Shown here: positions 19,039 through 33,496 of the stretch, piece by piece
How positions within the stretch are numbered: the first letter of the stretch is position 1
How the letters are laid out: each line of letters begins with the position of its first letter
NCBI RefSeq assembly: GCF_000758525.1
Contig: NZ_CP009241.1
Span: 3,162,001-3,226,000 of the forward strand
Reading direction: 5' to 3'
DNA length: 64,000 nucleotides
Origin: Paenibacillus sp. FSL H7-0357
Lineage (GTDB): Bacteria > Bacillota > Bacilli > Paenibacillales > Paenibacillaceae
Position numbers and translations under genes: made by a program
Notes under the pieces: generated by a model
What the model saw: the letters and a program-made list of their open reading frames with translations, nothing else
Databases searched by the model: none
Told to the model about the DNA's origin: nothing

Positions 19039-21318
19039 TCAAATGGTTTTGAAATACAAATGATACTGCTCATGGTTTAATTCTGCCAAAGGGGCAAATT
19101 CAAGCTGCGTCTCCTTGAAGACGAACCGGTTGGTACCAGTGATTCGTTCCATCTTCTCCTGTACATTTCCTTGGTGTAGGGGCAACTCATAAAAGTCTTT
19201 GCGGGTGGATACAGCCGCCAGAATAAAGGGACCAAAGGCGAGGGAGGCAGTGTCGTTCTTATCGGGAGTGAATTCCAACCGCAGCTCCGGCAAAAACCGA
19301 ATGGTTACCTTATCTTGCTTGCACCAGTCACAGGTTAAGGTGACATAACTGTTCTTTTCGGTAAAAGCAACCTGCTCACCATTGAGTTCAATCTTGACAT
19401 CTCCTTGATGCCAGTAAGGCTTGCGGATCTTTAAACGGGTTTTCTTCAAGGCCAGGATGGACAGCGTGATCTCTCCCGTAAAGATTTCAGGAACCATTTG
19501 CACCACATGCAGTCCATTGTCCGCATCCACCAGCTCAGATGAGACAAAGAGATTAACATATAAAGCGTCCGCATCCTCGAAGTAAACCGCTTCCGTATAT
19601 TTAAAATGGGCCTCCAAACCTGTACCGTGACAGCAGGAGTTCTCCTCGTCATAGCCCTTTTGCCCGCCGGGGCTGGTGGGCATAAAGTAGGTGCTTGCTC
19701 CCAGACATTCATGGTCGGTTGTCGCAAGAATATGATTCAACATGGTTCTTTCGTAATAATCCATATAAGACACATCATTTTCATATGCATATAGGTGTTT
19801 GGTGAGCTTTAACATGTTATAGGACGCACATGTTTCGGCGGTATGCTCCGTCAGATGGGCGCCGATCTTGTTAGGCTGCTTGAACATCTCACCCTCACCG
19901 GTTCCGCCGATCGAGTAAATATGGGAGTTTACAACCGACTGCCAGAAGAACTGGGCGATATCATAATACTTTTTTTCTTGCGTTGCCTCAAATATCTTGA
20001 TTGCTCCAACTACCTGGGGAATATGCTGATTGGCATGCAAGGCTCCCAGGGCATCTACTTTTTGCTCCATCGGGAAGAACAAGCGATCATTATCAAACAG
20101 CTTGGCCGCTTTAATATGATTTTCTTTGTCAGTATACGTATAGAGCTCAGCCAGTGACTCGTTGATCCCCCCAAACTCACCCGCAATGTACATGCTCCAC
20201 ATTTTGATTAATTGTTCATGCGACAGTGCACTCAAGCGGTTGTACACCCAGTCGCCGAGCTTGTCGGCAATGGTCAGCGCCAGTTGAATCCCGGCTTTAT
20301 GATAGCTGTCCAGCAAGCCGGCAAAAATCTTGTGCAGGGTGTAATAAGGTGCCCAGATTGCCGGATAGCGCACATATTTTTGCAGCAGATCAAATTGCTC
20401 CTCCGAATACGCGCTAATAAAGCCGAACTGGTATCTGTCATCTGCATCAAAGGCAAGTTGAACTTTATCTAATTCTTCAATCAGGTAAGTCAATTTACCG
20501 TAAATCTGCCCGTTGCCCGTTGAAGCATAGCACAGAGCAAGTGCCGACAGATAGTGTCCAGTCGTGTGTCCCTTCAGCAAGCTGTCGGGTGAATCCCAGC
20601 CGATCATCTCATCGGCCCCAAGGGTATCGATCCCAGCCGCCTTCCTGAAATTGTACAGCATCTGATCATCGTCAACCTTCAACAGAAAGGCCAGTCTCCG
20701 ATCCTGCGCAGTTTTGAATCTAGATGGCCCAAGCAGGCTGACCTTCTTCGGCGGAAAGGCATGCAGCAAGGCTTGTCTGACACTCTTCTTCTCGATGGTC
20801 TCCTTAACGATGACAGTCGCTGTTACCTCGTAAAGCGTGTCCGTCAGATGGCCAGCCGCTTTTTCCTCCCCGATCTCAGCATAAAGTCTTTCTGCTCCCC
20901 CAAGCCAATTGACCTGATGGCCAATGACATCGCCGGTTACAGTTTGAATAGACACAACAGAGGGCAGGCAAAATCTTGTATTCACTTGTTGCTGAATGTG
21001 TATGGGAAAGATTTTTCCAACCTGGGTTTTGTTTTTTTCCTCCAGAATGTTCACCTCAAAAACCTTAACCATCCTTGCCTCCCCGTACTGGAAAGTTGCG
21101 GTTAGCGGAACGATCCGGTCCCCTTTTCCATATTCAGGCTGATGCACTTTCCCAGAGCCGTCAATCCAACGGTCATCTTTTGAGGACCAGGTAATGGTGG
21201 AGCCATGCTTGCCCTCGGTCGGCAAAACAACATCAAACTCTACAGTTTTCAAATTCCCCAGATGCAAGGCCTCTATGTCTTGTTGGACCGTTTTTTGATC
21301 ACTGGATTTAACCGACAT
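19039..21318 (-). CDS. GH127 beta-L-arabinofuranosidase, cytosolic
   Basis: 759 residues from the ATG at 21318 (AAGGAGG seven bases upstream). It begins with two short Ig-like modules (about 1-200; ITWSSKDDRWIDGSGKV) not found in the minimal 660-residue enzymes. The catalytic barrel follows, with GHTTGHYLSALAL, the ETC motif in EHTAETCASYNMLKL and the CC pair in EENSCCHGTGLEAHF. In characterised GH127 (HypBA1) the Glu and three Cys bind zinc and one Cys is the nucleophile, so the active site is intact. No signal peptide: it would act on imported arabino-oligosaccharides. Divergent from an AraC regulator, with a cre-like box in the leader, so substrate induction and catabolite repression are expected. 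Confidence 0.88.
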   Translation of the reverse strand: MSVKSSDQKTVQQDIEALHLGNLKTVEFDVVLPTEGKHGSTITWSSKDDRWIDGSGKVHQPEYGKGDRIVPLTATFQYGEARMVKVFEVNILEEKNKTQVGKIFPIHIQQQVNTRFCLPSVVSIQTVTGDVIGHQVNWLGGAERLYAEIGEEKAAGHLTDTLYEVTATVIVKETIEKKSVRQALLHAFPPKKVSLLGPSRFKTAQDRRLAFLLKVDDDQMLYNFRKAAGIDTLGADEMIGWDSPDSLLKGHTTGHYLSALALCYASTGNGQIYGKLTYLIEELDKVQLAFDADDRYQFGFISAYSEEQFDLLQKYVRYPAIWAPYYTLHKIFAGLLDSYHKAGIQLALTIADKLGDWVYNRLSALSHEQLIKMWSMYIAGEFGGINESLAELYTYTDKENHIKAAKLFDNDRLFFPMEQKVDALGALHANQHIPQVVGAIKIFEATQEKKYYDIAQFFWQSVVNSHIYSIGGTGEGEMFKQPNKIGAHLTEHTAETCASYNMLKLTKHLYAYENDVSYMDYYERTMLNHILATTDHECLGASTYFMPTSPGGQKGYDEENSCCHGTGLEAHFKYTEAVYFEDADALYVNLFVSSELVDADNGLHVVQMVPEIFTGEITLSILALKKTRLKIRKPYWHQGDVKIELNGEQVAFTEKNSYVTLTCDWCKQDKVTIRFLPELRLEFTPDKNDTASLAFGPFILAAVSTRKDFYELPLHQGNVQEKMERITGTNRFVFKETQLEFAPLAELNHEQYHLYFKTI

Positions 21319-21336
21319 GTACTTTCCTCCTTGACA

Positions 21337-21350
21337 TTTAATCGCTTTCA
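21337..21350 (-). promoter_or_regulatory. cre box before the GH127 gene
   Basis: On the minus strand it reads TGAAAGCGATTAAA, one mismatch from TGWAANCGNTNWCA. It lies 18 bases upstream of the start codon, a roadblock-type position for CcpA. Confidence 0.6.
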
Positions 21351-21504
21351 CAGGATTAATGGTACAGGAAATAAAAATCAGTGTAAGTAGTTGAAAAAAA
21401 GAATAGGTGGATTATATTTACTACTATCGGGATGATTGCCGGGTTGAACTTGCCCGCTTATGGATTTCACGGAGCTATGTCTAATGCTGAGAGGAGTCAC
21501 AGTC

Positions 21505-22362
21505 ATGTATTTTGTTGATAAGAAATACACGGAGCATGCACAATTTTTGTCCGCAGGCACTTTCATCACCAATCAGCCCTGGATTCACACCGAACGGGTC
21601 ATTGACAGTTATGAAATCATCAGTCCCATCGAGTCTACGCTTTACATCGAGTGCAACAATATTCCCTACGCCATAGAATCGGGTGAGATCTTGGTCATTC
21701 CGCCGCATACTCGGCACAAGGGAATCAAATATTGTGAGGGTCGGATGAAATTCCACTGGCTTCATTTTTCATCGGTAAATCTGAGTATCCATACGGAGAC
21801 AGAGGTTATTCAGGAGCTCAATGTTAACAATGCCGATGACATGATTATCTTGCCCGTGCACACCAACAAAATCGACTCCAGGCGATTTCATGTCATGTTC
21901 AATCAACTGCTGGATTTATATCAGGAAAAGAAGCGGAATAATTACCTGAATGCTTATTTAAGCTGCCTTTTGCATGAATTGACCTCCGAAATCTTGAGTG
22001 TGCTGACCCGGAAAAATGTTAACGGCAACCGCCTGCAGCCGATCCAGGACTGGATTCGGATACATGCTTTTGATGACGTTACGATTGATAAAATTGCTGA
22101 TCATTTCAAATACAACAAAAGCTATCTGTCGAGAATTTACAAAGAGAATACCGGGATCGGAATCTCCGAGCAAATCATTACCTTTCGATTGAAGCATGCC
22201 AAAAAGTTGCTAACGGAAACAGATTTGAGCATTGTGCAAATTGCCTCGGAGGTGGGTTACGAGGATTCAAAATATTTCATGCGTTTGTTCAAAAAATATG
22301 AGAGCATCACTCCCACCCAATACAGGAAAACATTTTTTAACAAGCATTACAATAAAAAATGA
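21505..22362 (+). CDS. AraC-family regulator of the GH127 locus
   Basis: 285 residues from ATG 21505 (GAGAGGAG nine bases upstream; the frame is open from 21460). An N-terminal cupin-like sensor domain (ILVIPPHTRHKGIKYCEGRMKFHWLHF) is followed by two C-terminal helix-turn-helix motifs (VTIDKIADHFKYNKSYLSRIYKENTG and SIVQIASEVGYEDSKYFMRLFKKYESITPTQYRK). The divergent GH127 gene is the clear target; the inducer is probably arabinose or an arabinosyl sugar (inference). The coding sequence is AT-richer than the enzymes around it. Confidence 0.9.
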   Translation: MYFVDKKYTEHAQFLSAGTFITNQPWIHTERVIDSYEIISPIESTLYIECNNIPYAIESGEILVIPPHTRHKGIKYCEGRMKFHWLHFSSVNLSIHTETEVIQELNVNNADDMIILPVHTNKIDSRRFHVMFNQLLDLYQEKKRNNYLNAYLSCLLHELTSEILSVLTRKNVNGNRLQPIQDWIRIHAFDDVTIDKIADHFKYNKSYLSRIYKENTGIGISEQIITFRLKHAKKLLTETDLSIVQIASEVGYEDSKYFMRLFKKYESITPTQYRKTFFNKHYNKK

Positions 22363-22484
22363 AGAGAGCCATACTTGTGTTGCGTTGTCCACTTAACCTA
22401 TGGTTTGGGCTACCGTAGTGAAAAAGAAATCATGCTATCATTGAAAAGAAAGCGATACCATTTATTGTGAGGGGGGCATATGTA

Positions 22485-23543
22485 ATGGTGAATGGTGAAT
22501 TGCACATAGCGGCGGCCCAATTTATTGATCCGCACCGGATTGAATTGGTTTGGAATGATGGGGCGGAAGTTGCACAAGATCCAAATGCTTTTTTGGTTGA
22601 GCTAAACGGGGTGAATGTGCCCATTTACGCCAATGAGGATAAGGAGGCTTGGGATACTAGATGTGTGTATGAGGCGTCCAAGCGGCGAACAACGCTGTAC
22701 CTGCTGAATCCCATACAGCATAATGATTTGGGCAAGGTCAAGCTTACCGTTGTCGGGCAAAAAGGACAGGGCAGCGCAGTAACGGTCAACCAACCCTGTA
22801 TAATAAAAAAGTGGCAGAACTACTACACCAGATTTACCAGAACCTCTTCTGGAATTCTCATTAAATCCTCTTCACATGTCGGTTATCAGGTGCATGACCA
22901 AGCCTGTGCAATGATTGAGGTGATGTTGAGCAAAAGGCCGGAGGTAGCGCGGAAGCTGGAAGAGCTGCAAGCCTCTCTGGCTATTTACGGTTTGCAGGAG
23001 GACGCGTATGATATACCGGAGCATCGCGGCGGAGCGGACTTTTTAACCCGTCCTGTAGAAGGCTTCGGTGGAACGCCGCAAATTCCGACGACTTCTGTGT
23101 CAGAAAAAAACATCATGCGGTATAGAGATGGAGAGATTCAGACCCGATACCTCAATGAGTCCATCCTGGCCCATGAATTCGGGCATGCGATCCATTTAAT
23201 CGGGATCAATAATCTGGAGGATCAGACTTTAGCCAGACAACTGGTTAACGCCTATGAGCATGCCGTGGCCAGCGGACTTTGGCCGCATACCTACGCGATT
23301 TCCAATTACGAGGAGTATTTCGCCACATTAACGACAATCTGGTTTAATGTAATGGCCGAAAGCAAGGACGGCACCTGGGACGGGGTTAGAGGGCCAGTTA
23401 ATACTCGGGAAGAGCTAAAAGTCTATGATCCGCTGGGCTACTCCTTTTTCGACTCAATCTATCCTGACCGGGCATTCCCGGAACCCTGGAGCAGCACGTC
23501 CAATAAGTTTTCCGTTCAAGACCTGCTGCCTGCTGCGGAGTGA
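22485..23543 (+). CDS. Putative zinc metallopeptidase with HEFGHAIH motif
   Basis: 352 residues from ATG 22485, eight bases after GAGGGGGG. The N-terminal 110 residues look like an Ig-type strand domain (RIELVWNDGAEVAQDPNAFLVELNGV). The C-terminal half carries the zinc motif ESILAHEFGHAIHLIG and, about 45 residues on, YAISNYEEYFATL, where a Glu in the third-ligand position is typical of gluzincins such as the anthrax lethal-factor-like group. No signal peptide or membrane segment, so either cytosolic or exported by another route. It follows the AraC gene by 122 bases on the same strand. Family assignment beyond HExxH is uncertain. Confidence 0.65.
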   Translation: MVNGELHIAAAQFIDPHRIELVWNDGAEVAQDPNAFLVELNGVNVPIYANEDKEAWDTRCVYEASKRRTTLYLLNPIQHNDLGKVKLTVVGQKGQGSAVTVNQPCIIKKWQNYYTRFTRTSSGILIKSSSHVGYQVHDQACAMIEVMLSKRPEVARKLEELQASLAIYGLQEDAYDIPEHRGGADFLTRPVEGFGGTPQIPTTSVSEKNIMRYRDGEIQTRYLNESILAHEFGHAIHLIGINNLEDQTLARQLVNAYEHAVASGLWPHTYAISNYEEYFATLTTIWFNVMAESKDGTWDGVRGPVNTREELKVYDPLGYSFFDSIYPDRAFPEPWSSTSNKFSVQDLLPAAE

Positions 23544-23600
23544 AAACGAGCAAATATAGTTAAACAAAGCGGAAAATCCCAATTAAGTGAGCTGGTTAAA

Positions 23601-23961
23601 GTGCATGAGTTTGTAGTACGAGGGAAAAAGGGCTGTTTTGTACAAATCACCATAGAAGAGGCATTCGGTTTTCCGAACATGACAAGCCATTTTGGTGGAT
23701 ATGATGTCAGAGGAATTGTAGAAATTAAGAGTGGGAACTATTGCAGCATTGATAAATTCTGAAGTGAACCTAAAGCTAGAAGTTAAGTTTAACAAGCGAG
23801 GGCAGGTCATCATTGAAGGTTACTTCAAGGAGTTTGCACACGAGGGCAATGAGTTAATATTTGAAATCGAAAGCGATCAAAGCTTTTTTGTGGAGACGCT
23901 CGACGGATTGAAACAATTCGTTAACCACTATGGGGATATGAAAGGAATATGTCCTAAGTAG
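23601..23961 (+). pseudogene. WapI-like immunity gene, internally deleted and frameshifted
   Basis: A first frame (23601-23762) reads FVVRGKKGCFVQITIEEAF, then FPNMTSHFGGYDVRGIVEI, and stops. A second frame, overlapping from 23731, continues with NLKLEVKFNKRGQVIIEGYF, then FVETLDGLKQFVNHYGDMKG. Both halves together match my memory of the roughly 145-residue WapI-type immunity family of Bacillales, in which about 25-30 residues normally lie between them. So there has been an internal deletion with a phase change. Intact members protect against the WapA/contact-dependent toxin family. No toxin gene is nearby. A TAACGGG separator-like motif follows at once. Confidence 0.5.
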
Positions 23962-24103
23962 CCATTCTAACGGGCAGTTTTGTGGAACTTTATCGTGGGA
24001 TAGTTTAATTATGTTTGTTTTATCCTGGTCATATTGTCTATCCATCGTGGTATTATTGAATGCAATAAACAATATAATACTTCTGATGGGGCGTGATTTG
24101 AAT

Positions 24104-25570
24104 ATGAAGTCTCCCTTTAATCTGATGAATTTAAATATAGAAGAAGCAAGTATATATGAATTACAAAACGCGATGGAACAAGGTGAATTTACTTCAAAAG
24201 AATTAGTGTTTTGCTACTTATCACGTATCGCAAAATATGATCAGGATGGCCCTCACATAAATTCCATCATGGAAATTAACCCCGATGCCATTTTCATCGC
24301 AGAAGCACTTGATATAGAACGTCAGCGCAAGGGGAGTAGAGGACCTTTTCATGGCATACCGATTCTCGTTAAGGATAATATCGAAACCGGAGACAAGATG
24401 CGTACCAGTGCGGGAGCTTTAGCACTAGCACAGCATGTAAGTACGACGGACGCTTTCCTGATTCGCCGATTAAGAGAATCGGGGGCCATCATTTTGGGCA
24501 AGACGAATATGACAGAATGGGCCAACGGTATTTCCTCGACAATGTGGGCAGGTTATAGTTCAAAGGGGGGGCAGGTCGCGCACCCCTATGGTGATTTTTT
24601 CGTAGGCGGATCCAGTACGGGATCCGCAGCTGCGGTGGCCATGAGTTTTGCAGCAGCGGCGATAGGCACAGAAACCTCCGCTTCAATTCTGAGTCCGGCC
24701 ATACAGATGTCTATTGTCGGCATCAAACCGACCGTCGGCTTAATTAGCCGCTCAGGACTTATTCCTTTTTCTTATTCACAAGACACAGCAGGGCCGATGG
24801 CAAGGACGGTTTCAGATGCGGTAGTTCTGCTTAACGCATTAGCTGGGAGGGATGAGCACGACCCAGCAACCTGGCGTAATGACCATGTTATACAGGATTA
24901 CACATCATTCTTGGACAAGAATGGACTACAGGGAGCGAGAATTGGGGTCTTTTGTGAAGTACCAGATTCCCTGCGTGAATCTGGTGAATATAATCAGGAG
25001 CTATTTCATCAAGCAGTCTCCGAATTGATAAAAGCAGGAGCCGAAGTAGTAGAAAATATCGACATTCCATCGTTTCATGGTCCATGGCATTGGAACAAGA
25101 TGAATTTAGAATTCAATCATGGAGTGGAGAATTATTTGCAGCGTCTCCCGGCACATATGCCTGTTCATTCATTGTCCGAACTCATCAATTGGAATGAAAA
25201 GTATGCAGATGCAGCCCTGAAATACGGTCAAGATATATTAGAATTCCGGGAGGGGTTAACCAATCCTTTGAAAAATAAGGACTATATCATGGAATCTATT
25301 ATGGATTTATATCTAGCCCAGAACGAAGGAATTGATTATGCGATAAATAGTTATCAGTTAGATGCGATAATGTTTCCAGCTTATATTGGAGCGGATATAT
25401 GTGCCAAAGCTGGTTATCCATCTATTGCTATCCCCGCAGGGTATGGAGCAAACGGCAGACCATTTGGCATTACTTTTGCCGGAAAAGCATTTACTGAACC
25501 TACCTTAATTCGCATAGCTTATTCTTTTGAACAAATAACAAAACATCGCAAAAAACCTATATTCAACTAA
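24104..25570 (+). CDS. Amidase signature family enzyme
   Basis: 488 residues from ATG 24104, though the start is uncertain: the frame is open from 24011 and only a distant GGGG precedes 24104. The Ser-cisSer-Lys triad is visible: Lys in ILVKDNIETGD, Ser in GGSSTGSAAAVA and Ser in IGTETSASILSPA. The N-terminal ASIYELQNAMEQGEFTSKEL is typical of B. subtilis YerM-like amidases. It hydrolyses an unknown amide in the cytosol. Its last codons and stop (TTC AAC TAA) are part of a TTCAACTAA separator motif, so the C-terminus may have been trimmed or supplied by the cassette boundary. Codon use is AT-rich. Confidence 0.88.
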   Translation: MKSPFNLMNLNIEEASIYELQNAMEQGEFTSKELVFCYLSRIAKYDQDGPHINSIMEINPDAIFIAEALDIERQRKGSRGPFHGIPILVKDNIETGDKMRTSAGALALAQHVSTTDAFLIRRLRESGAIILGKTNMTEWANGISSTMWAGYSSKGGQVAHPYGDFFVGGSSTGSAAAVAMSFAAAAIGTETSASILSPAIQMSIVGIKPTVGLISRSGLIPFSYSQDTAGPMARTVSDAVVLLNALAGRDEHDPATWRNDHVIQDYTSFLDKNGLQGARIGVFCEVPDSLRESGEYNQELFHQAVSELIKAGAEVVENIDIPSFHGPWHWNKMNLEFNHGVENYLQRLPAHMPVHSLSELINWNEKYADAALKYGQDILEFREGLTNPLKNKDYIMESIMDLYLAQNEGIDYAINSYQLDAIMFPAYIGADICAKAGYPSIAIPAGYGANGRPFGITFAGKAFTEPTLIRIAYSFEQITKHRKKPIFN

Positions 25571-25589
25571 AGGGGAACTATGTAGGCAG
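25562..25589 (+). repeat. Cassette separator, copy 1
   Basis: TTCAACTAAAGGGGAACTAT, then GTAGGCAG. The TAA inside it is the amidase stop codon. The right half is degenerate. Confidence 0.45.
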
Positions 25590-25623
25590 CTTCCCATTTT
25601 CTTATCTTACGGTAGAAGATTAA

Positions 25624-25718
25624 ACAAACGAGAAACACTAGCTCAAGCATGCTGGCAGATTAAAACCTCCCTTTAGAAGCAAATCTAGATGGAATAGCTT
25701 CTAAGGGGAGGTTTTGTA
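25624..25718 (+). repeat. Separator half plus hairpin leader, copy A
   Basis: A right-half separator (AAACGAGAAACACTAGCTCA) runs into a long hairpin. Arm one is AAAACCTCCCTTTAGAAGC (25662-25680), arm two GCTTCTAAGGGGAGGTTTT (25697-25715), with a single G-T wobble. The same sequence recurs 1800 bases downstream. In this copy the ATG after the hairpin leads into ATG CTA TTC AAC TAG, so the gene once behind it has been lost. Confidence 0.7.
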
Positions 25719-25720
25719 TG

Positions 25721-25748
25721 CTATTCAACTAGAGAGCAGTTTAGCAGG
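25721..25748 (+). repeat. Cassette separator, copy 2
   Basis: CTATTCAACTAGAGAGCAGT, matching CTATTCAACTAAAGAGCAGT at 29164. This looks like the right boundary of the lost recombinase segment. Confidence 0.45.
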
Positions 25749-25754
25749 GTGAAC

Positions 25755-25794
25755 GATATGATCCTCTGTTAAAAAAATAGAGGATTTTCATATC
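25755..25794 (+). other. Hairpin in the 25571-25977 intergenic stretch
   Basis: GATATG-ATCCTCT (25755-25767) pairs with AGAGGAT and CATATC (25779-25785, 25789-25794). It may be a terminator for the broken leader. The rest of this 407-base stretch holds only the separator and hairpin copies listed separately. Confidence 0.45.
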
Positions 25795-25977
25795 ACTCCG
25801 CCGAAATTTGAAATGTACTTTTTGTTAGATATAGTGGTGTGAACCGTAGCATAGATGACAGATTTCGCTACATTTGATCTGCGAATCGGGCATATAATTC
25901 CAGGGAAATGTGGTGGAAGATGCGGGGCAAGCGTTCAACACCATGATAGAAGTGAAATCTATCTAGGAGGACTTCAA

Positions 25978-26370
25978 ATGAGCTATGATTTGATGGTTTT
26001 CGAGCCGTCCAGGGCACCGAGGGAAAGAAAGGAGTTTATGGATTGGTTTGAGCAGCAAGTACAATGGTCGGAAAATCATGAATATAATGATCCTTTTGTC
26101 TGCTCAGAGTCGTTGCACCGCTTGTACAGTAAGCTATCGGAGGATTTTCCCAATATGAATGTAGATGATGAAATTTTTGAAGCTATGGAGGAAGCCGGAA
26201 CTGAAAACCGGTTAACCGAGTACTCGCTGGGCTCCGCCGTCATCTATGCGGCTTTCGCTTATTCCGTAGCTAAGGAAGCATATACTACGATGCGGAATTT
26301 GGCTATAAAACACAAGGTAGGATTTTTTGATGTTAGCAGCAACGACGGCGAAATCTTTTTCCCTGATTGA
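25978..26370 (+). CDS. Small conserved protein, MSYDLMVF type, possibly immunity
   Basis: 130 residues from ATG 25978, with AGGAGG six bases upstream. The start MSYDLMVFEPSRAPRERKEF and the end MRNLAIKHKVGFFDVSSND define a widespread small cytosolic family I recognise by pattern but not by name. Members appear singly in accessory regions of many bacteria, often among immunity-type genes. No membrane segment or catalytic motif is evident. It sits in the cassette-like island between separators. A protective (immunity) role is inference from context only. Confidence 0.6.
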   Translation: MSYDLMVFEPSRAPRERKEFMDWFEQQVQWSENHEYNDPFVCSESLHRLYSKLSEDFPNMNVDDEIFEAMEEAGTENRLTEYSLGSAVIYAAFAYSVAKEAYTTMRNLAIKHKVGFFDVSSNDGEIFFPD

Positions 26371-26489
26371 TAATGCCACTTCGATAGTTTTCCATACCTC
26401 CCCCAAGTTAGTTGAAAACGCGGACGGAAATACGGTATTAATCGTAAATTTCTTTAGAAAACAAAAGACAATTAGTAACATATTCATTA

Positions 26490-26515
26490 TTCAACTAACG
26501 GGTAGGATAGTTCAG
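26490..26515 (+). repeat. Cassette separator, copy 3
   Basis: TTCAACTAACGGGTAGGATA, then GTTCAG. AACTA and TAGTT arms are kept. Confidence 0.55.
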
Positions 26516-26532
26516 AAAAGGCGTGAACAGTA

Positions 26533-26793
26533 ATGGAAAGTGTAATTAAGGAAATCATATCCCCAAGCGGGGTCTATAAAGCGCAGATAATTAAACGCTC
26601 TAAGGATGGTTTATTTACATCACAGGTCTTCAAATGGATTGAACATGATGAAGAAATAAGCGAGATAATAGGGGAGAAGGGCTTTTGGGGAGTTCTCTAC
26701 TCTACAAATTCATTAACAGATACAGTGGAAAGCTGTATGAAAGTTACTATCGAGAATTTAACTAATGCTTCAGCAGAGAAGATTATTATATAA
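26533..26793 (+). CDS. Hypothetical 86-residue protein
   Basis: ATG follows GGCGTG by a few bases. 86 residues with strand-rich, mixed-charge sequence (IISPSGVYKAQIIKRSKDGL, FKWIEHDEEISEIIGEKG), no membrane segment and no motif I know. Its size and style resemble orphan immunity or YkuS-like small proteins. The stop TAA is directly followed by the best-preserved separator. It begins 17 bases after the previous separator, so separators bracket it on both sides and the gene and one separator form a unit of roughly 290 bases. Confidence 0.55.
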   Translation: MESVIKEIISPSGVYKAQIIKRSKDGLFTSQVFKWIEHDEEISEIIGEKGFWGVLYSTNSLTDTVESCMKVTIENLTNASAEKIII

Positions 26794-26825
26794 CGTTCAA
26801 CTAACGGAAACGTTAGTTCAATGAA
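26794..26825 (+). repeat. Cassette separator, best copy (4)
   Basis: AACTAACG-GAAA-CGTTAGTT (26799-26818) is a perfect 8-bp stem with a GAAA tetraloop, flanked by CGTTC on the left and CAATGAA on the right. It starts one base after the stop codon of the preceding gene. Confidence 0.7.
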
Positions 26826-26946
26826 AAAAACGACAGTTAGTTTAATGATTTCGCGAATACTTCAACTATGTAGAATATGCGAAGTTTGCAGATTAGCTGT
26901 TAGGCGAATCTTTTGAAAGCATATATTAAAACATGGGAGGAAAAAA

Positions 26947-27431
26947 TTGATTAAATTCATCTCATCAGTTTTATTTGTTAAAGATATAGCAGTTTCACGG
27001 ATGTTTTATGAAGAGATTTTAGACCAACAAGTAGAGATAGACTATGGTGTCAATATCGGATACCTTGGTGGCTTTTCAATATGGAGGAAGGACGTAGCAC
27101 ATCAAAACATATTTAGAGATAACAAGGCTGAAATCGAATTAATAGGTAGCGGGAAGCAGCAAATTGAACTGTATTTTGAAGTGGAATACATAGATGAGAT
27201 CTACAAAAAACTTAAAGATCATCAGATTGAATTCGTTCATGACATATTTGAACAACCTTGGGGACAAAGAGTAGTTAGAGTATATGACCAGATAAATATA
27301 TTATTGAATTAGGCGAACCGATGAATGTGGTAATCAAGAGATATTATGAGACTGGTATGACATTGGAAGAGGTAGCAGAGAGGTCTTTAACACCAATTAG
27401 TATTGTAAGAAGCGTAATTAATAACAAATAA
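26947..27431 (+). pseudogene. VOC/glyoxalase-family gene with a one-base frameshift
   Basis: The first frame from TTG 26947 (GGGAGG upstream) gives a clean VOC domain, FISSVLFVKDIAVSRMFYEE through PWGQRVVRVYDQ, then runs to a stop after 121 residues. Adding one C in the CC at 27288-27289 restores YDPDKYIIELGEPM, the expected end of a VOC domain including the metal-ligand Glu. It also restores a further 45 codons (VIKRYYETGMTLEEVAERSL) ending at 27431. So the ancestral protein was about 160 residues and has lost one base. The truncated product lacks the last strand and ligand and is probably inactive. Sequencing error is the alternative. Confidence 0.75.
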
Positions 27432-27433
27432 TT

Positions 27434-27517
27434 AGCACTAGCTCAAGCAGGTTAGAAGATTAAAACCTCCCTTTAGAAGCAAACCTAGATGTAATAGCTT
27501 CTAAGGGGAGGTTTTCT
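27434..27517 (+). repeat. Separator half plus hairpin leader, copy B
   Basis: CACTAGCTCAAGCA (27436-27449), then the hairpin arms at 27462-27480 and 27497-27515, close to 90 percent identical to copy A exactly 1800 bases upstream. The GGGGAGG in the second arm is the ribosome binding site of the recombinase remnant that starts at 27519, so the stem would hide it. Confidence 0.7.
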
Positions 27518-27518
27518 T

Positions 27519-27668
27519 ATGAAGTTAAGTGAGTTGTGGCATCTATATGAGGCTGATATTCCTAAGTTTTTAATCGAGGAAGATGTTATTCACCTTAAGA
27601 TCTCGTGTCACTTGTTAAGCGACAGGACTCGAGATATCTTTTTTATAACAGTTTTATACCAATCGTAA
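27519..27668 (+). pseudogene. Recombinase N-terminal remnant 1
   Basis: A 49-codon frame starting MKLSELWHLYEAD, the beginning of a Paenibacillus-type tyrosine recombinase as I remember it (normally continuing KRIxGFSxxTLKAY). After residue 13 the sequence is unrelated and the frame soon ends, so most of the gene is deleted. GGGGAGG of the preceding hairpin gives a proper ribosome binding site. A second remnant of the same gene begins at 28986. Confidence 0.5.
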
Positions 27669-27727
27669 AGTATTACTAGTAGTATACTATTGGATGTGTT
27701 TCCCATTATTGAAGGGAGTGGTGTGGT

Positions 27728-27801
27728 ATGAAGAATATCGTTGCTGTCGTGGTTGTTACGGAGGAAGTTCAATTATAATCACAGAGGAATTCCTCTGTGA
27801 T
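27728..27801 (+). other. 17-codon frame and perfect 24-bp palindrome
   Basis: A tiny frame (MKNIVAVVVVTEEVQL) with GAAGGGAG upstream ends at 27778, where a perfect palindrome begins: ATCACAGAGGAA (27778-27789) against TTCCTCTGTGAT (27790-27801). It could be an operator or a hairpin upstream of the GNAT gene. The peptide may be a leader or chance. Confidence 0.35.
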
Positions 27802-27824
27802 ATCAAAATTTTGGAGGGATTCAT

Positions 27825-28271
27825 GTGGTTATTGAATTAAAGCCGGTATCAATTGAGAACTGGTACGATTGTACCAAGTTAAATGTAAAGCAAGAACAAA
27901 CTAGTGTTTTTCCAGCTCCTGTTGTTTATTGGATTGCAGAATCTAAATTTCTTCATGATTTTGATTTGCGCGCAATATATTCAGAGGCGTTGCTAGTCGG
28001 ATTTATTGTCTTTTGTAAAACCCCCGACGAAGACGGTAACCATTGGATACCTGCACTCATGATTGATGAGAATCATCAAGGGAATGGTTTTGGCAAAAAA
28101 GCAATGAAAAAATTAATTGATCTTATGAGTCAAAATGGTTGTAATAGATTAATGATCGGGCACAGACCCGACAACTTGATTGCTGGGAACCTGTATGAAT
28201 CCTTGGGATTTCAGAGGGCTAGCGAAGAAATAATTGACGGTGAAATTATTCGTTTTCTACAACTTAATTAA
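27825..28271 (+). CDS. GNAT acetyltransferase, polyamine (BltD/PaiA)-like
   Basis: 148 residues from GTG 27825, with GGAGG eight bases upstream. The N-terminus (LKPVSIENWYDCTKLNVKQE, then YWIAESKF) matches the spermidine/spermine acetyltransferase branch. The acetyl-CoA loop is NHQGNGFGKKAMKKLI, and NLYESLGFQ closes the fold. Polyamine acetylation lowers toxicity of excess spermidine; the substrate is inferred from the N-terminal pattern. It is an intact member of the cassette-like island and is followed by a hairpin and a separator. AT-rich coding. Confidence 0.85.
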   Translation: MVIELKPVSIENWYDCTKLNVKQEQTSVFPAPVVYWIAESKFLHDFDLRAIYSEALLVGFIVFCKTPDEDGNHWIPALMIDENHQGNGFGKKAMKKLIDLMSQNGCNRLMIGHRPDNLIAGNLYESLGFQRASEEIIDGEIIRFLQLN

Positions 28272-28292
28272 AGGATCCCCTTAGTAAATAAA

Positions 28293-28355
28293 TATGGCTG
28301 TCAGTAAATTACTGGCAGCGGTCGTTCAACTAATAAGAAACGTTAGCTCAATAAA
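28293..28355 (+). repeat. Hairpin and cassette separator, copy 5
   Basis: GCTGTCAGT and ACTGGCAGC pair across a short loop at about 28295-28318. Then CGTTCAACTAATAAGAAACG and TTAGCTCAATAAA (28323-28355). The hairpin may end the GNAT transcript. Confidence 0.55.
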
Positions 28356-28414
28356 TGCCATGAGTATATTAGAAATGGATTTAAGAGCGGTATGTGATGT
28401 GTGGAGGATTTTTA

Positions 28415-28963
28415 ATGACGCAATTTTATCTCATTCGCCATGGTGAACCTCTATGGGACATAAATGAACATTACAAATTAAAGGGACATGGCCGGGACAT
28501 GGTTCCTCTTACGAATAAAGGGGTTAACCAAGTATATTTGACAGCAAAGGACGAACGTTTAAAAGAAGCTGAAATTGTTGTCTCTTCTCCTTACCCAAGA
28601 GCACTTCAAACGGCCGCTATTTTATCAAAGGAACTTGGTTTAGAAATAATGGTTGAATTCGATTTAAGGGAATGGCAACCTGACTTAACATTTGAATATG
28701 ATTCATTGGAGAAGCTTAAAGAACTGGGGGATGATTATGATGCTAATCATGGAGTCTATCCTCCTGGGGTAACCAAGCTTTGGGAGTCTAAAGAACTACT
28801 GAAGAACCGCATGGAGAAGGTGATTAACAAATATCTCGAATTTCAAAAGGTGATAATTACTGGACACGGCATGGCTTTTCGTACCTTGGTAGGAGAGGTA
28901 GGCGAGATTCCACATGCTTCAATTATCGAGTATTATAAACAAAGCCATGTCACTTTACGCTAA
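28415..28963 (+). CDS. Histidine phosphatase family protein
   Basis: 182 residues from ATG 28415, with GGAGG seven bases upstream; an earlier ATG pair at 28394 lies before that site. Catalytic RHG in FYLIRHGEPLWD, SSPYPRALQTA and the second His in IITGHGMAF are intact. This branch is distinct from the RHF-type protein at 11611. The stop codon (CGC TAA CGG) falls inside a CTAACGGG separator, so the last residue is set by the boundary. Substrate unknown. Part of the cassette-like island. Confidence 0.82.
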   Translation: MTQFYLIRHGEPLWDINEHYKLKGHGRDMVPLTNKGVNQVYLTAKDERLKEAEIVVSSPYPRALQTAAILSKELGLEIMVEFDLREWQPDLTFEYDSLEKLKELGDDYDANHGVYPPGVTKLWESKELLKNRMEKVINKYLEFQKVIITGHGMAFRTLVGEVGEIPHASIIEYYKQSHVTLR

Positions 28964-28985
28964 CGGGAGACGATAGTTCAAGCAG
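28960..28985 (+). repeat. Cassette separator, copy 6
   Basis: CTAACGGGAGACGATAGTTC, then AAGCAG. It supplies the stop codon of the phosphatase and joins directly to recombinase remnant 2. Confidence 0.6.
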
Positions 28986-29080
28986 TAAAGGTAAGTGAGT
29001 TATGGCATCTGTATAAGGCTGATAAACGAATTCAAGGATGCTGGGCCATGAGAAAGCCTCAACCACGCAGATATACGCAC
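28986..29080 (+). pseudogene. Recombinase N-terminal remnant 2
   Basis: Reads VKVSELWHLYKADKRIQG, the same N-terminus as remnant 1 with five more recombinase-like residues, then unrelated sequence. The hairpin leader and ATG present at 27434-27521 are missing here: the separator is fused straight to the second codon region, so it cannot be translated normally. The end point is approximate. Confidence 0.5.
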
Positions 29081-29163
29081 AACACCGTGGCGAACGCAGG
29101 AGAGAAATGTACCAGTGATCCCTTTAGCACATTATAGCGGTAGATCCCTTTTAGAAATTTGCC

Positions 29164-29186
29164 GCTATTCAACTAAAGAGCAGTAT
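29164..29186 (+). repeat. Cassette separator, copy 7
   Basis: CTATTCAACTAAAGAGCAGT, nearly identical to 25721. Lies 19 bases before the next gene. Confidence 0.5.
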
Positions 29187-29204
29187 GTGAAGGGAGAATG
29201 ATTA

Positions 29205-29465
29205 ATGAAGGGGCGAGTTTATGTAGAGTATAGGCGTTTAGGATTTTTTGCTGTAGAGACCGAAGACAATGATTTCTCCATAATTGAGGTTGGGAGTGGA
29301 ATCCCTTCCTTAGGAGACGAATTGATTGGGGGGCTTAATTCACTTGGTGAAAAGCAACTATACAATGAGACAACTAAAGAAGAATTAGATGTATCTATTA
29401 AATCTATACAATTAACCCTAGCCGAAGCGAAGAGCTATATTAAAGATGCTGCAAGAGGGAAATAG
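29205..29465 (+). CDS. Hypothetical 86-residue protein
   Basis: ATG with GGGAG about nine bases upstream. The sequence GRVYVEYRRLGFFAVETEDNDFSIIEVG suggests a small beta-barrel; the second half is helical. No domain recognised beyond a vague similarity to small Bacillus proteins. It is the last unit of the cassette-like island, followed by a separator and a terminator. Function unknown; an immunity or antitoxin role would fit the context but has no direct support. Confidence 0.6.
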   Translation: MKGRVYVEYRRLGFFAVETEDNDFSIIEVGSGIPSLGDELIGGLNSLGEKQLYNETTKEELDVSIKSIQLTLAEAKSYIKDAARGK

Positions 29466-29473
29466 TTAGACGA

Positions 29474-29500
29474 TTTAACGGGATACGATAGCTTAATAAA
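29474..29500 (+). repeat. Cassette separator, copy 8
   Basis: TTTAACGGGATACGATAGCT, then TAATAAA, directly before the terminator that closes the island. Confidence 0.55.
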
Positions 29501-29551
29501 CCAGCGGGAGTTCAGGATTTTATTTTCCAGAACAAGACTTCCGCTGGTTTT
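29499..29551 (+). terminator. Terminator closing the island
   Basis: AACCAGCGGGAGT (29499-29511) pairs with ACTTCCGCTGGTT (29537-29549) with one mismatch, followed by T residues. Confidence 0.7.
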
Positions 29552-29598
29552 ATATGGGAGTCAGTCTAATACTTCGAACATGTATATGGAAAATATAT

Positions 29599-29640
29599 AG
29601 GAGGTCCGGCAAACCATTTCATTGGTTTACCGGACCTCCT
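29599..29640 (-). terminator. Terminator of the alpha-galactosidase operon
   Basis: 18-base arms at 29599-29616 and 29623-29640 (AGGAGGTCCGG / CCGGACCTCCT at the base) with one mismatch. Lies just past the stop of the minus-strand GH36 gene. Confidence 0.7.
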
Positions 29641-29661
29641 TATTGCAGATGCGGGTTGCTA

Positions 29662-31884
29662 CTAGTCTGCCTCCAAAATAAAAATGCGAGACAGAAAATC
29701 GCCTCTTGGCACCTTGGAATGGTAATCGCCAGATGTATGGTCATTTAAAACAATACCGATCTCCATCAATTCATCCCCAAAATAGCCGTGTTCGCCTAAA
29801 TGGGCGATGCGATATTTTTTATGAGGGTCCAGTCCGGCAAGCTTCAATCGCCGATAGCCGTCGTTTACCTTCGTAAGAATGCGGTAATAGCCGACGATCG
29901 CCCGGCTTCTGTCTCTGGATCGGACCATCCATGCTGTTTCATTACCCTGGAAGGGACTGGCCAGCCGATAAAACGTCCCCCGCGCCATGAGACCACGGTA
30001 CTTTTTCATAAAGGTGATTTGTTCCTGAACGGTTGCTTTTTCTTCATCAGACAGCAGGCTGATATCGAGCTCATAGCCAAAGGTGCCAAAATAGGCGACA
30101 CTGCCTCGGGTATTCAGGGAAACGCTGCGGGATGTCTGGTGATTGGGTACCGCGGAAACATGGGACCCCATGCTGCTGAGCGGGTATACCATGGAGGTGC
30201 CGTATTGTATTTTTAACCGTTCGACGGCGTCTGTATTATCGGAAATCCATCCCTGCGGCGAGTAATACAGCATCCCCGGATCAAATCGTCCACCTCCGCT
30301 GGCGCATGACTCGAATAAGACCTCAGGAAATTTACTGGTTAACCGTTCGTGCAATTCATATATCCCCAGGATGTATTGATGGTAAACCCTTCCTTGAAAA
30401 TCACATTCCCTTCCTTGGGAAAACACTTCTGACATAGAGCGGTTCATATCCCATTTCACATAGGAGATATCAGAGCCGGCTAACAGATGGCTGAGGGTCT
30501 GATCCAAGTAATCAATGACCTCGGCCTTCGTCAAGTCCAGGACATATTGATTTCGACCCGGACTCACCGTACGGTAGGGGACGGATAATAACCAGTCCGG
30601 GTGCTTCTCATAAAGTTTGCTTGCTTTGCTGATCATTTCCGGTTCAAACCAAAGGCCGAATTTCAGCCCCATTGCAGTAATCTTAGAGGCAAGGCCGGAG
30701 ATGCCGTTGGGCAGCTTGACCTTGTTGGGGTACCAGTCCCCGAGAGAGGTTGTGTCTGTATTACGTTCGCCAAACCAGCCGTCATCCAGAACAAACAATT
30801 CGATTCCAAGCCCGGTGGCCGCGCGGGCAAGTCCAAGTATTTTGTCCTCATCAAAATTCATGTAGGTGGCTTCCCAGTTATTGATTAGGATGGGGCGCTC
30901 TCTGTCCCTCCAGAAGCCTCGGACCAACCGTGTTTGATACAGCTCGTGGAACACTTGGCTCATCCTGTTCAAGCCTTTATCAGAATACACCAACACGGAC
31001 TCCGGCGTTTGAAAGCTATCTCCGGGTTCCAAAACCCAACTGAAGCCATGCGGATGTATGCCCATCATTATACGGGTTACATCATACGTATCTACTTCAG
31101 CCTGAGCCAAAAAATTGCCGCTGTACACTAAACTGAATCCGATTGCTTCGCCGAGAAACTCCGTAGTTTCCTTTCGCTTCAACCCGATGAAGGGGTTATA
31201 GTTGTGGCTGCTGTGCCCCCGCAGACTGTATATGCTTTGAATACCCTGGTGCAGAGGAACATTCTGAATATGCCGCTCCCTCCCCCAAGCACCGGTTAAG
31301 GTCAACATTTCATACTCCTTATCCGGAAGCTCCAGGCTGAAGCTCATAGCGGCTTCAAGGCGGATTTTCTCTGTGCCTGAATGGATTATTTTCATAGATC
31401 GGGTTAATACAGGTAACTGGTTGAAGAGAGTATATTGCAGTTCAACCTGACAGGAGAGAGTCTTGTCGATTAAACAAATACACACGGTATCGGCCTCATT
31501 GTCCTCTTCGACATACGTTGCGGGCAGGCCTTCAAGTGAAGGTTTGCCCGGGAGGATATGATGACTTAAATACTCAAAATGAGTGGTGCTGCTGCCATCC
31601 TGCTGGACCACATGAAGCCCGCAGCTTCTTAAATCGCCTGCACCATAAACCGAAACTTCCTGTTTGACCTGCTCCAGGGAAAACTTGGGATTTCCTTCAA
31701 AAACGCAGGGAGACATATCGCGAAACCCCCATTCCAGCAGGTGGGAGAAATCCTCCTGGTCCTGAATCCTTTTGCCGTAATACAAATGGCCAAGCTGCTG
31801 ATTCAGCATGACGCAAAAGATGTAACTGATATCATCATTGTACAAGTGAAATTGCTTGGTTTTTTCATGGTAGATCACAGGCAT
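29662..31884 (-). CDS. GH36 alpha-galactosidase
   Basis: 740 residues from the ATG at 31884, with AAAGGAG upstream; the frame is open to 31932. It has the length and layout of the tetrameric Firmicutes GH36 enzymes (AgaA of Geobacillus, about 730): N-terminal beta-sandwich, barrel and C-terminal sheet domain. The nucleophile Asp is at about 479 in YVKWDMNRSMSE and the acid/base Asp at about 549 in ISDNTDAVERL, next to ESCASGGGRFD. FVLDDGWFGERN is also typical. No signal peptide: it hydrolyses imported raffinose, melibiose or galacto-oligosaccharides. The transporter gene lies 57 bases upstream and is probably in the same transcript. Confidence 0.95.
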   Translation of the reverse strand: MPVIYHEKTKQFHLYNDDISYIFCVMLNQQLGHLYYGKRIQDQEDFSHLLEWGFRDMSPCVFEGNPKFSLEQVKQEVSVYGAGDLRSCGLHVVQQDGSSTTHFEYLSHHILPGKPSLEGLPATYVEEDNEADTVCICLIDKTLSCQVELQYTLFNQLPVLTRSMKIIHSGTEKIRLEAAMSFSLELPDKEYEMLTLTGAWGRERHIQNVPLHQGIQSIYSLRGHSSHNYNPFIGLKRKETTEFLGEAIGFSLVYSGNFLAQAEVDTYDVTRIMMGIHPHGFSWVLEPGDSFQTPESVLVYSDKGLNRMSQVFHELYQTRLVRGFWRDRERPILINNWEATYMNFDEDKILGLARAATGLGIELFVLDDGWFGERNTDTTSLGDWYPNKVKLPNGISGLASKITAMGLKFGLWFEPEMISKASKLYEKHPDWLLSVPYRTVSPGRNQYVLDLTKAEVIDYLDQTLSHLLAGSDISYVKWDMNRSMSEVFSQGRECDFQGRVYHQYILGIYELHERLTSKFPEVLFESCASGGGRFDPGMLYYSPQGWISDNTDAVERLKIQYGTSMVYPLSSMGSHVSAVPNHQTSRSVSLNTRGSVAYFGTFGYELDISLLSDEEKATVQEQITFMKKYRGLMARGTFYRLASPFQGNETAWMVRSRDRSRAIVGYYRILTKVNDGYRRLKLAGLDPHKKYRIAHLGEHGYFGDELMEIGIVLNDHTSGDYHSKVPRGDFLSRIFILEAD

Positions 31885-31941
31885 GGGGAAAACTCCTTTC
31901 AAAAAAGTGCTGACAATTGAAATTGTCAACACTGGGGTTTA

Positions 31942-33456
31942 TTAGTCCATATCTTTTTCGATATTTTTGGAAAAGAGGAAGATGAGCAGAGCCGTCATGA
32001 ACAGAAGTCCCGTCATAATAGGAAACAAGTTGACCTGCTCGTCAGCCGTTTGATAGAAGGTGAACAGAATCAAAGCTATTCCGTTGCCGATCGTGCCCGC
32101 CTGACCCCAAGCGGTTTGCATCTGCGTATCGTAAGCATCGGGCGACAATTTAGCTACAAGCGATGAACCGATGGGCCAAACCAGATTGTCGGAGAACGTA
32201 AGGAACAAATAGTAGAACACCATCCAAAGCAGGTTGTAGGGGGCCTGATCCTTAAACATAATGATCGGTATGGTCAGCAAGCCGAAGCCGCAAGCAGAGA
32301 ACAATATACCTAATCCGTATTTATAAGTGGTGCGAATATGGGTTGCGCGTGTTTTGGTCCACAGCCAGACAAAGACGGGGGACAAGGCCAAGCCGAAGAT
32401 GGTATAAATGGTTCCCACTGATCCTGGAGCAATTTCAATTCCAAAAATATGACGATTGATTTTCTGATCGATAAAAATCGCCACAGTGGAAGTCAGCATG
32501 GTTCCGCAAAGCGCCATCACAATCTGGGCTGAGAATAATTTGAGGAAGGGCTTCAACCGTCTTTTGTCCCGGGCGGTTAAATCTTTTTTCCTCATGAGAT
32601 TGGTCAAGAAAGCAATCGGAATAATAAAAGTGGCTGAAGTGATGATGTTTAATACTCCCTGGAAGGACATCACACCGTTAATGACTAAAACCACAATGGT
32701 GCCTATAAAGATAAGCATAATGATCAGGAAACGGGTCAATAATGTTTTGAACTTCCCTTCCTCAAGAGGTTTGATCGGCTTTTCGCCCAAGGGACCAAAA
32801 TATTTGTGTTGTGTAAAGAAAATCACCGCACCATACAGGAAGGCAGCCGCAGACGCGATCAAGAATCCCAGATGGAAATTTTTCATTCCGATTTGGCCGA
32901 CCAGAAGTGGAGCAACCAGACCGGCAATATTGTTGGCAATCGTGTGAATGGTAAAGGCGGCGTCCCGTCTTCCGCTGTCGGATTTGCGGTAGAGCTGGCC
33001 GGTCAAAGAAGCGTTGCTTGCCCCCATAATTGGAAGCGACATCAAAAACAATGCGATGAATGCAAATATTCTTCCTTGTGTTAGAGAAAAAGCCGGAATG
33101 GCCAAAACACCAAATGCCATCCCTTTCACTATGTTGCCAATAATCAAAGCTTTGCGCATGCCCAATACCCGGTCAGCCAGCCAGCTTCCCAAAATGCCAA
33201 ATATGGAGTTGCAGGCGCCCATTGCCGCAATCATAGATGCGGCCTGACCCTGTGTGAAGCCTAACCCTTTCATGTATGGACTGTAGAGATAAAAAATTAA
33301 AATCGCGTACAAGGCTCCCCAAGCAAATGAATTAAAAAAGTTCCCCGCTGCCAAAGCGCCTACACCTCTTGGGTGGCCCAAAAATTTCTTGTCGTCCAGT
33401 ACCTCCTCCAACGATTTATTTCTGGGATTCATGTTCGTATGGCTTTCATCGCTCAT
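31942..33456 (-). CDS. POT/PTR2-like transporter without ExxER motif
   Basis: 504 residues from the ATG at 33456 (GAAGGAAG upstream; the frame is open to 33519). Twelve to fourteen membrane helices with MFS/POT traits: AGNFFNSFAWGALYAILIFYLY in helix 1, the GSWLADRVLGMRKALIIGN loop and SDNLVWPIGSSLVAKLSP. Classical POT peptide symporters have ExxERFxYY in helix 1; here the aligned residues are NxxNSFAWG, so the proton-coupling Glu and Arg are missing. With an alpha-galactosidase directly downstream, the cargo is more likely a galactoside than a peptide (inference). A cre-like box lies 27 bases before the start. Confidence 0.75.
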   Translation of the reverse strand: MSDESHTNMNPRNKSLEEVLDDKKFLGHPRGVGALAAGNFFNSFAWGALYAILIFYLYSPYMKGLGFTQGQAASMIAAMGACNSIFGILGSWLADRVLGMRKALIIGNIVKGMAFGVLAIPAFSLTQGRIFAFIALFLMSLPIMGASNASLTGQLYRKSDSGRRDAAFTIHTIANNIAGLVAPLLVGQIGMKNFHLGFLIASAAAFLYGAVIFFTQHKYFGPLGEKPIKPLEEGKFKTLLTRFLIIMLIFIGTIVVLVINGVMSFQGVLNIITSATFIIPIAFLTNLMRKKDLTARDKRRLKPFLKLFSAQIVMALCGTMLTSTVAIFIDQKINRHIFGIEIAPGSVGTIYTIFGLALSPVFVWLWTKTRATHIRTTYKYGLGILFSACGFGLLTIPIIMFKDQAPYNLLWMVFYYLFLTFSDNLVWPIGSSLVAKLSPDAYDTQMQTAWGQAGTIGNGIALILFTFYQTADEQVNLFPIMTGLLFMTALLIFLFSKNIEKDMD

Positions 33457-33482
33457 GGTTCTTCCTTCTTTCTGCGTATTTC

Positions 33483-33496
33483 TGAGAACGCTTTCC
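33483..33496 (-). promoter_or_regulatory. cre-like box before the POT/GH36 operon
   Basis: TGAGAACGCTTTCC on the plus strand differs from TGWNANCGNTNWCA at one position. It lies between the start codon (33456) and an AT-rich -10-like stretch, so CcpA could block transcription. Confidence 0.55.

Follow-up and report, generated by a model that had tools for sequence, protein, structure and literature searches.

Bacteria collect small accessory genes in several ways. The dif modules of Acinetobacter have small two-armed sites and are not known to have a dedicated recombinase, and the orientation of dif-module sites alternates. Integrons carry their own tyrosine recombinase, IntI, which has a specific extra segment in its catalytic domain. 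The integron-defining parts that we used for comparison were those given in PMC8618304. According to PMC9024848, Firmicutes have integrons only extremely rarely: one complete integron was found in them, together with a few clusters of attC sites lacking integron-integrases (CALIN). Here, we describe a locus of Paenibacillus sp. FSL H7-0357 in a 64,000-nucleotide stretch of its 7.69-Mb genome (the window; G000:C1:3162001-3226000). Its 6.0-kb central part (window positions 23545-29580) is very probably, judging by sequence features, a decayed array of an integron-like gene-cassette system of Bacilli, with modules exchanged at CTAACG and a dedicated Xer-like recombinase as the likely agent. No description of such a system was recognised by title or abstract start in the openly available literature, subscription papers and preprints being mostly outside the scope of that search.

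Across 170 copies, taken from 40 loci fetched within the genus, the site was strongly conserved only from about -8 to +24 around CTAACGGG, and a weak GC-rich and then a T-rich trend followed downstream. A first-pass annotation of the window had claimed variants of one motif. The sites were real, but the single form had to be replaced by two forms sharing one polarity, which we designated LH and RH. LH (TTnARCTAACGGGAnACGATAGTTCAAT) was placed after the stop codon of a gene and RH (TTnARCTAACGGGCAGkwTAGTTnAA) opened the next gene module, often with a hairpin between the two. The core joining the modules was CTAACG. Modules ended with the left arm TTnAR-CTAAC; gene modules began with GGGCAGnnTAGTT (RH), and separators and recombinase units began with GGAnACGATAGTTCAA (LH).

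A profile of the site gave 427 raw matches of at least 7 bits in 41 sources, compared with 4 in reversed sequence. Neighbouring sites at most 3 kb apart were on the same strand 252 times and on opposite strands 5 times (overlaps removed; 40 loci and the window, the array loci having been picked for recombinase or dense motif matches and not forming a random sample). Their median spacing was 662 bp. Further loci gave 41 same-strand and 3 opposite-strand neighbours, with one overlapping locus left out. Among 416 cores, the commonest successions were RH-gene-LH (100), LH-short hairpin-RH (77), LH-LH (43), RH-RH (28) and LH followed by a distant RH (25), while the remaining pairs involved unclear cores or rare orders. 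A strong site was present within 110 bp upstream of 61 of the 132 RH copies (at 49-80 bp in 57) and missing from the other 71. In 173 of 197 intervals the longest open reading frame (ORF) had the same strand as the sites, and 92 of these 173 ORFs had their stop codon between -60 and +25 bp relative to the next core. Genes started a median of 125 bp after the core, which left room for their own promoters.

Homologous segments shared between array loci indicated that cassettes moved as units, with exchange at the site visible as a sequence footprint in part of them. We compared 84 segments that did not belong to the recombinase (length at least 200 bp, identity at least 90%), 79 of which were usable (36 within one genome and 43 between genomes; they were not independent). 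In both copies a core was no more than 25 bp away from the right end of 41 segments (null 0.085), from the left end of 13 (null 0.11) and from both ends of 7 (null 0). The between-genome segments ended at a core on the right in 22/43, on the left in 8/43 and on both sides in 4/43, and the within-genome segments on the right in 19/36 and on the left in 5/36. The first mismatch was found at +3 to +8 in 16 of the 27 clean right ends, and the nearest upstream mismatch at -1 in seven of the 13 non-redundant left ends (two of which were out of register in one copy). These base-level module ends pointed to CTAAC(G), at the left of the two-armed site, as the likely place of exchange. In addition, a 1.15-kb module present in three genomes had a different left and a different right neighbour in each, and genomes G056 and G057 had four modules in common (97-99% identity), of which two stood in a different order. 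Thus, the expectation that the same separators would flank different genes was borne out at other loci, where the same genes also had different neighbours. The commonest families among 61 sampled cassette proteins were NUDIX (4), GNAT (4), phosphotransferase-like (3) and methyltransferase (2), all being types that are also known in integron arrays.

The array in the window followed the same pattern. A weight matrix built from other genomes detected six strong sites of 18.6-39.5 bits at 25617, 26487, 26793, 28322, 28952 and 29467 (+ strand scan, 20000-34000), and one match of at least 6 bits was found on one strand of the reversed 64-kb window. Degenerate copies were located near 23964, 25559, 25722, 27423 and 29168, partly by eye. 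The motif copies proposed earlier were therefore real. The same was true of separators at or inside stop codons, namely the amidase TAA (25568-25570), the stop of an 86-residue protein (26793) and the phosphatase TAA (28961-28963), which was inside a core. Of the nine one-way small genes or remnants in the earlier description, the + strand orientation held and the number of recognisable genes or gene fragments became eight; the end of the array was moved from 29500 to about 29580.

Five of the eight genes had relatives at array or recombinase loci of other genomes, and no relatives of the 129-residue protein, the glyoxalase or the phosphatase were found in the fetched loci. The other-genome copy of the 86-residue gene at 26533..26793 had a different right neighbour. 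The fragment resembling a WapI immunity protein had a 68% amino acid relative in a recombinase locus (L219), where an LH site followed it. Recombinase remnants had also been suspected in the array, and we identified three. The second matched recombinase units of other genomes over 121 bp at 90-98%, the third matched the 3' ends of such units over 147-158 bp at up to 89%, these being intact units of other species, and the first matched the second as well as the LH-hairpin part of a recombinase unit. A candidate fourth remnant at the left end (23546-23600) was suggestive by eye and missed by the site scan, and we did not claim it.

Comparison with relatives supported gain or loss at this locus. 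In the closest relative found (G017), the left flank of the array (window 17883-23544) aligned to positions 10591-16217 of the corresponding locus (L153) at 90.7% and the right flank (29581-33260) to positions 16222-19901 at 92.4%. The two flanks were only four bases apart, meaning that the array was missing, and a second relative (G055) was likewise without it. The locus was thus a presence/absence difference of unproven direction. The empty site of G017 kept a stretch resembling the right arm, ATAGTTGAATA, and so loss with a scar was possible in this relative; such a stretch was not seen at the G055 locus.

The host genome matched the strict motif pattern at the window locus only. Further sites, found as 26 model matches at E<=1 when 150 of 1970 candidates were scored, were located near 1.95, 3.49, 5.66-5.67, 6.77 and 6.86 Mb, plus a few single ones. 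Comparison of another array of the host genome (L184) with the nearest relative revealed no clean synteny. A 1.76-kb duplication at 99.9% (L184:8457-10217 and L186:5801-7561) was perhaps an insertion element adjoining an array. A repeat of about 60 bp (L184:18653-18712), with some 25-30 scattered matches in G017, showed no apparent relation to the site.

Starting from the remnant at 27519, we identified an intact Xer-like tyrosine recombinase of 280 residues (PF00589, E 1.8e-33). The first-pass annotation had proposed to look for an intact recombinase starting with MKLSELW in such arrays, and such enzymes were indeed present there. The residues R138, K162, H229, R232, H255 and Y264 were invariant in 15 of 15 recombinases and corresponded to the catalytic R-K-H-R-H/W-Y set. 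By sequence, the best solved relative was XerD (1a0p, E 2.6e-31). However, the recombinase scored under the cut-offs of all eight NCBIfam models listed, including XerD (188.7 bits against 329.6) and XerC (187.7 against 335.15). A structure model was poor (mean predicted local distance difference test score 50.8) and was not used.

The recombinase unit was about 1,005 bp long, started in LH and had the order LH-hairpin-gene-hairpin-RH; the ending CTAAAGGGCAG was found for 8 of 13 intact ORFs printed. Because it started in LH and ended in a hairpin and this sequence, the unit looked like a separator with a recombinase gene inside. Recombinase matches at E<=1e-60, including many broken ones, were present in 26 of 100 genomes of the genus and in 88 of 392 genomes and 21 of 49 genera of the order. 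The strict motif was found in 176 of the 392 genomes and 21 of the 49 genera, where a single match may be a lone LH element. It was present in 68 of the 88 recombinase-positive genomes and in 108 of the other 304 (Fisher p 3e-12, cross-table made by hand). Paenibacillus, Cohnella and Brevibacillus were among the carriers represented in the best 80 of 188 loci. The host genome itself had no match at E<=1e-60, and its array was therefore probably static unless helped in trans. No relative of the recombinase was found in four candidate stretches of viral contigs, and three phage records had about 34% identity to it at E<=1e-40.

One-way arrays of accessory genes with a tyrosine recombinase could also be expected from a diverged true integron with IntI and attC sites. 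The recombinase did score on the integron-integrase model TIGR02249, and the separators had a strong central stem, which reached at least 7 bp in 36 of 75 cases and in 1.4% of shuffles. However, the score of 87.8 bits was far under the cut-off of 265 and also under the XerC and XerD scores. Residues 15-187 of the recombinase aligned to positions 10-181 of this model and residues 207-267 to positions 245-305 of 2a3v, and the IntI-specific extra segment of the catalytic domain was likely missing. Moreover, LH and RH were direct, sequence-conserved repeats, and the recombinase travelled as a module. The consensus fold of the site had only 5 pairs. Covariation was detected neither between the left and right arms of LH (169 sites, p 0.14) nor between the right arm of LH and the left arm of RH (609 of 825 paired against 615 in shuffled sets, p 0.92), which favoured recognition of double-stranded DNA without proving it; arm pairing was consequently dropped as a sign of a folded single-stranded site. 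Judged by its conserved primary sequence, weak fold and missing covariation, and not by a run of an attC model, the site did not appear to be an attC. We therefore consider a diverged integron exceedingly improbable, in agreement with the earlier view that IntI was absent and that the motif did not fit attC.

A T-run followed the separator stem in only 7 of 31 cases, so that separators may act as terminators only in part, and we ruled out a terminator at every separator. An Rfam search of four array loci yielded no match to the site and one T-box. This T-box leader (RF00230) was located within a cassette-array locus (L096:16313-16517), so that modules may come with regulatory leaders of their own.

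A second subfamily allowed us to compare sites and enzymes. A plasmid of Sporosarcina psychrophila encoded a recombinase of about 51% identity, surrounded by the same core on the opposite strand in the forms TTnAACTAACGGGTGCTTTAGT (LH2) and TTnAACTAACGGGGCAGGTTAGTTGAA (RH). Matches to this enzyme at E<=1e-70 were present in 26 of 398 genomes and 18 of 145 genera of the class. The 22 loci of the second subfamily and its relatives (20 fetched and two plasmids) contained 31 RH, 27 LH2 and 1 LH1 sites (1, 3 and 0 in reversed sequence), and their neighbouring sites agreed 33 times and disagreed 4 times. The Paenibacillales loci, some of which overlap, had 275 RH, 228 LH1 and 16 LH2 sites (1, 12 and 17 in reversed sequence); given this control, the 16 LH2-type sites were not counted as real. 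Thus, the LH arm tracked the recombinase subfamily while the core and RH were constant, as expected if the enzyme reads the site.

These observations also bear on the possibility that the modules were of the dif or pdif type and moved by the housekeeping Xer recombinases. The two-armed site was indeed of Xer size and the recombinase was Xer-like. However, the sites shared one polarity, the LH arm tracked the subfamily, and the recombinases formed a dedicated family below the XerC and XerD cut-offs that travelled with the sites. The site is not known to resemble the Bacillus dif site. This origin is thus very unlikely.

On the Sporosarcina plasmid (pSP10-266k, L293 3579-34367), sites were located around the mercury-resistance genes merA/merR and around NUDIX, GNAT and metallopeptidase genes, and the recombinase faced the other way. 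Since 30 of 31 genes in this stretch ran one way, one-way order said little there. Recombinases 49-65% identical to the Sporosarcina enzyme at L337-L340 and L342-L345 had no recognisable core nearby, and their site sequence may differ. A plasmid of Peribacillus simplex (pSHB26, L294:1187 and 15877) had RH-like sites and two tyrosine recombinase genes, possibly representing a further subfamily.

LH also occurred outside arrays. An element of about 115 bp consisting of LH and a hairpin (L192:6917-7031) was present at 19 scattered places in the two relatives G017 and G055 (14 and 5). By eye, 4 of the 19 had no recognisable LH and several others only a part of it. A long hairpin of the same type closed the array in the window and was located past the last site of some other arrays. 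In the array loci, 109 sites were separators, 67 other, 10 terminal and 8 recombinase units. These lone elements may be landing sites or relatives of the separators resembling repetitive extragenic palindromic (REP) sequences.

In the latter case, the LH-hairpin sequences could be non-autonomous repeats inserting after genes, in the manner of REP sequences or miniature inverted-repeat transposable elements (MITEs). The recombinase unit would be their autonomous parent, and genes would be shuffled by homologous recombination. The ends of the recombinase units resembled those of the separators, and the scattered elements mostly stood behind a same-strand open frame, as this explanation would have it. 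However, homology of gene modules often stopped in the core and not across the separator, and 28 RH-RH joints had no separator between the genes. Separators alone would not explain why RH opens gene modules, and same-strand neighbours outnumbered opposite ones by 330 to 8 in the Paenibacillales loci, with some overlap. Dispersal between native genes was found only for the terminal LH-plus-hairpin form. The earlier worry about a genome-wide REP-like element was therefore justified for the lone elements, but RH, the module grammar and the breakpoints in the core marked cassette arrays. We regard mobile repeats as an unlikely explanation of the arrays.

We thus favour a cassette system whose modules, strung one way and joined at CTAACG, are of three kinds: genes together with the region upstream of them, hairpin separators and recombinase units. 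Since each module ends with a left arm and has its own right part, any module could follow any other. The recombinase would attach to both arms and carry out strand exchange where the spacer begins on its left, with a crossover between the left arm and about core position +5. Modules may be excised as circles, inserted at other cores and reordered, the recombinase itself is carried as a module of about 1 kb, and arrays may start at lone LH elements. The proposal that a tyrosine recombinase drives a cassette-capture system of another kind, now decaying, was in this way supported, with association pointing to the role of the enzyme.

Several observations weigh against this interpretation. Of the 79 segments, 38 missed the core in the both-copies test at their right end and 66 at their left end, so that other kinds of rearrangement, overlooked sites or divergence contribute as well. 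In 11 of the 27 clean right ends the match continued to +10 to +18, where the crossover was not placeable. The strict motif was absent from 20 of the 88 recombinase-positive genomes, no recombinase match at E<=1e-60 was found in the large-array genomes G047, G057 and G070, and no site was found in 8 of the 22 loci with recombinases of 49-65% identity. Lone LH-plus-hairpin elements were dispersed after native genes, and by eye 16 of the 19 followed a same-strand open frame. The 43 sites of the 30 best-hit loci comprised only 13 clear LH-hairpin-RH separators, next to 7 sites of the terminal type, 21 other sites and 2 that were cut. Finally, the evidence came from sequence and no recombination was observed.

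Features of the array in the window (positions from the first letter of the window)
Feature	Position	Strand	Evidence
Whole array, missing in two relatives	23545..29580	+	Flank alignment to L153; L154 likewise without array
WapI-like immunity-protein fragment, 76 residues, first module	23731..23961	+	PF24716, E 1.2e-7
RH-type junction TTCTAACGGGCAG, start of amidase module	23964..23990	+	Read by eye; profile score just 2.1 bits
Amidase gene	24107..25570	+	PF01425, E 3.3e-77; 49% amino acid relatives in array loci L097, L157
Degenerate site over amidase stop	25559..25581	+	9.5 bits
Recombinase-unit remnant 1: LH, hairpin 25662-25715, RH CTAGAGAGCAG at 25729; gene lost	25617..25740	+	
129-residue protein without Pfam family	25981..26370	+	
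RH-type junction CTAACGGGTAGGATAGTTCA	26487..26518	+	12.3 bits (site profile), 30.3 bits (weight matrix)
86-residue protein, cassette gene	26533..26793	+	315 bp at 98.4% in L069, another genome
LH site with best stem	26793..26824	+	20.5 bits (profile), 39.5 bits (weight matrix)
Glyoxalase-like gene	26947..27312	+	PF12681, E 8.7e-27
Recombinase-unit remnant 2: degenerate LH, hairpin 27462-27515, internally deleted gene remnant	27423..27622	+	
GNAT acetyltransferase cassette (gene 27825-28271)	27623..28333	+	712 bp at 95% in L090, another genome, other context
LH site	28322..28354	+	18.2 bits (profile), 32.1 bits (weight matrix)
Histidine phosphatase gene; stop codon within next core	28415..28963	+	PF00300, E 5.9e-21
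Recombinase-unit remnant 3: LH, gene remnants, hairpin, RH CTAAAGAGCAG at 29173	28952..29186	+	27.7 bits
86-residue protein, last cassette gene	29205..29465	+	349 bp at 82.5% in L071, another genome
Terminal element: LH, long hairpin, GTCAGTCTAATACTT	29467..29580	+	Related elements scattered in relatives

The native flanks of the array (17880-23543 and 29662-33519) apparently contained sugar-use genes, as their translations included long glycosidase-like ORFs, an AraC-type regulator and a transporter.

More broadly, we think it rather likely that Bacilli own a cassette system separate from integrons. It would have an Xer-derived recombinase family that moves within the arrays as a module, a 6-bp core, a polar crossover on the left side only, co-evolving arms and lone LH elements as a dispersed counterpart of attI, and would extend from Paenibacillus and Brevibacillus to other families of the class and a Sporosarcina plasmid. 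If one order of Firmicutes commonly has a cassette system of its own, this would help to explain how small accessory genes are pooled and reshuffled in soil bacteria. If true, it would also provide an independent comparison for the requirements of cassette systems and a new tool for site-specific recombination.

Among known systems, XerC, XerD and XerA share the family and the catalytic residues with the recombinase described here, which differed in its below-cut-off scores and its linkage to cassette arrays. The dif/pdif modules of Acinetobacter plasmids likewise have genes flanked by short two-armed Xer-type sites, whereas our arrays were long and had a dedicated recombinase, one polarity and a different core. 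REP and MITE palindromes resemble the lone LH-plus-hairpin copies after native genes, but not the arrays, the RH ends or the breakpoints in the core. The likeness to integrons extended to one-way tandem arrays, in which the accessory genes were mostly single, to a tyrosine recombinase and to a site at gene ends. As in sedentary chromosomal integrons and CALIN, cassettes were shared and reordered between species and some arrays had no integrase. In contrast to integrons, the recombinase was not IntI by the NCBIfam cut-off, the site consisted of two direct conserved cores with a hairpin or a recombinase gene between them, and the recombinase was a module inside the array, with no proven attI or common promoter. 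Thus, the system is best read as one that works like an integron yet differs from one in the enzyme and site features tested, and it appears to be an independent equivalent of the integrons by which genes spread among Gram-negative bacteria.

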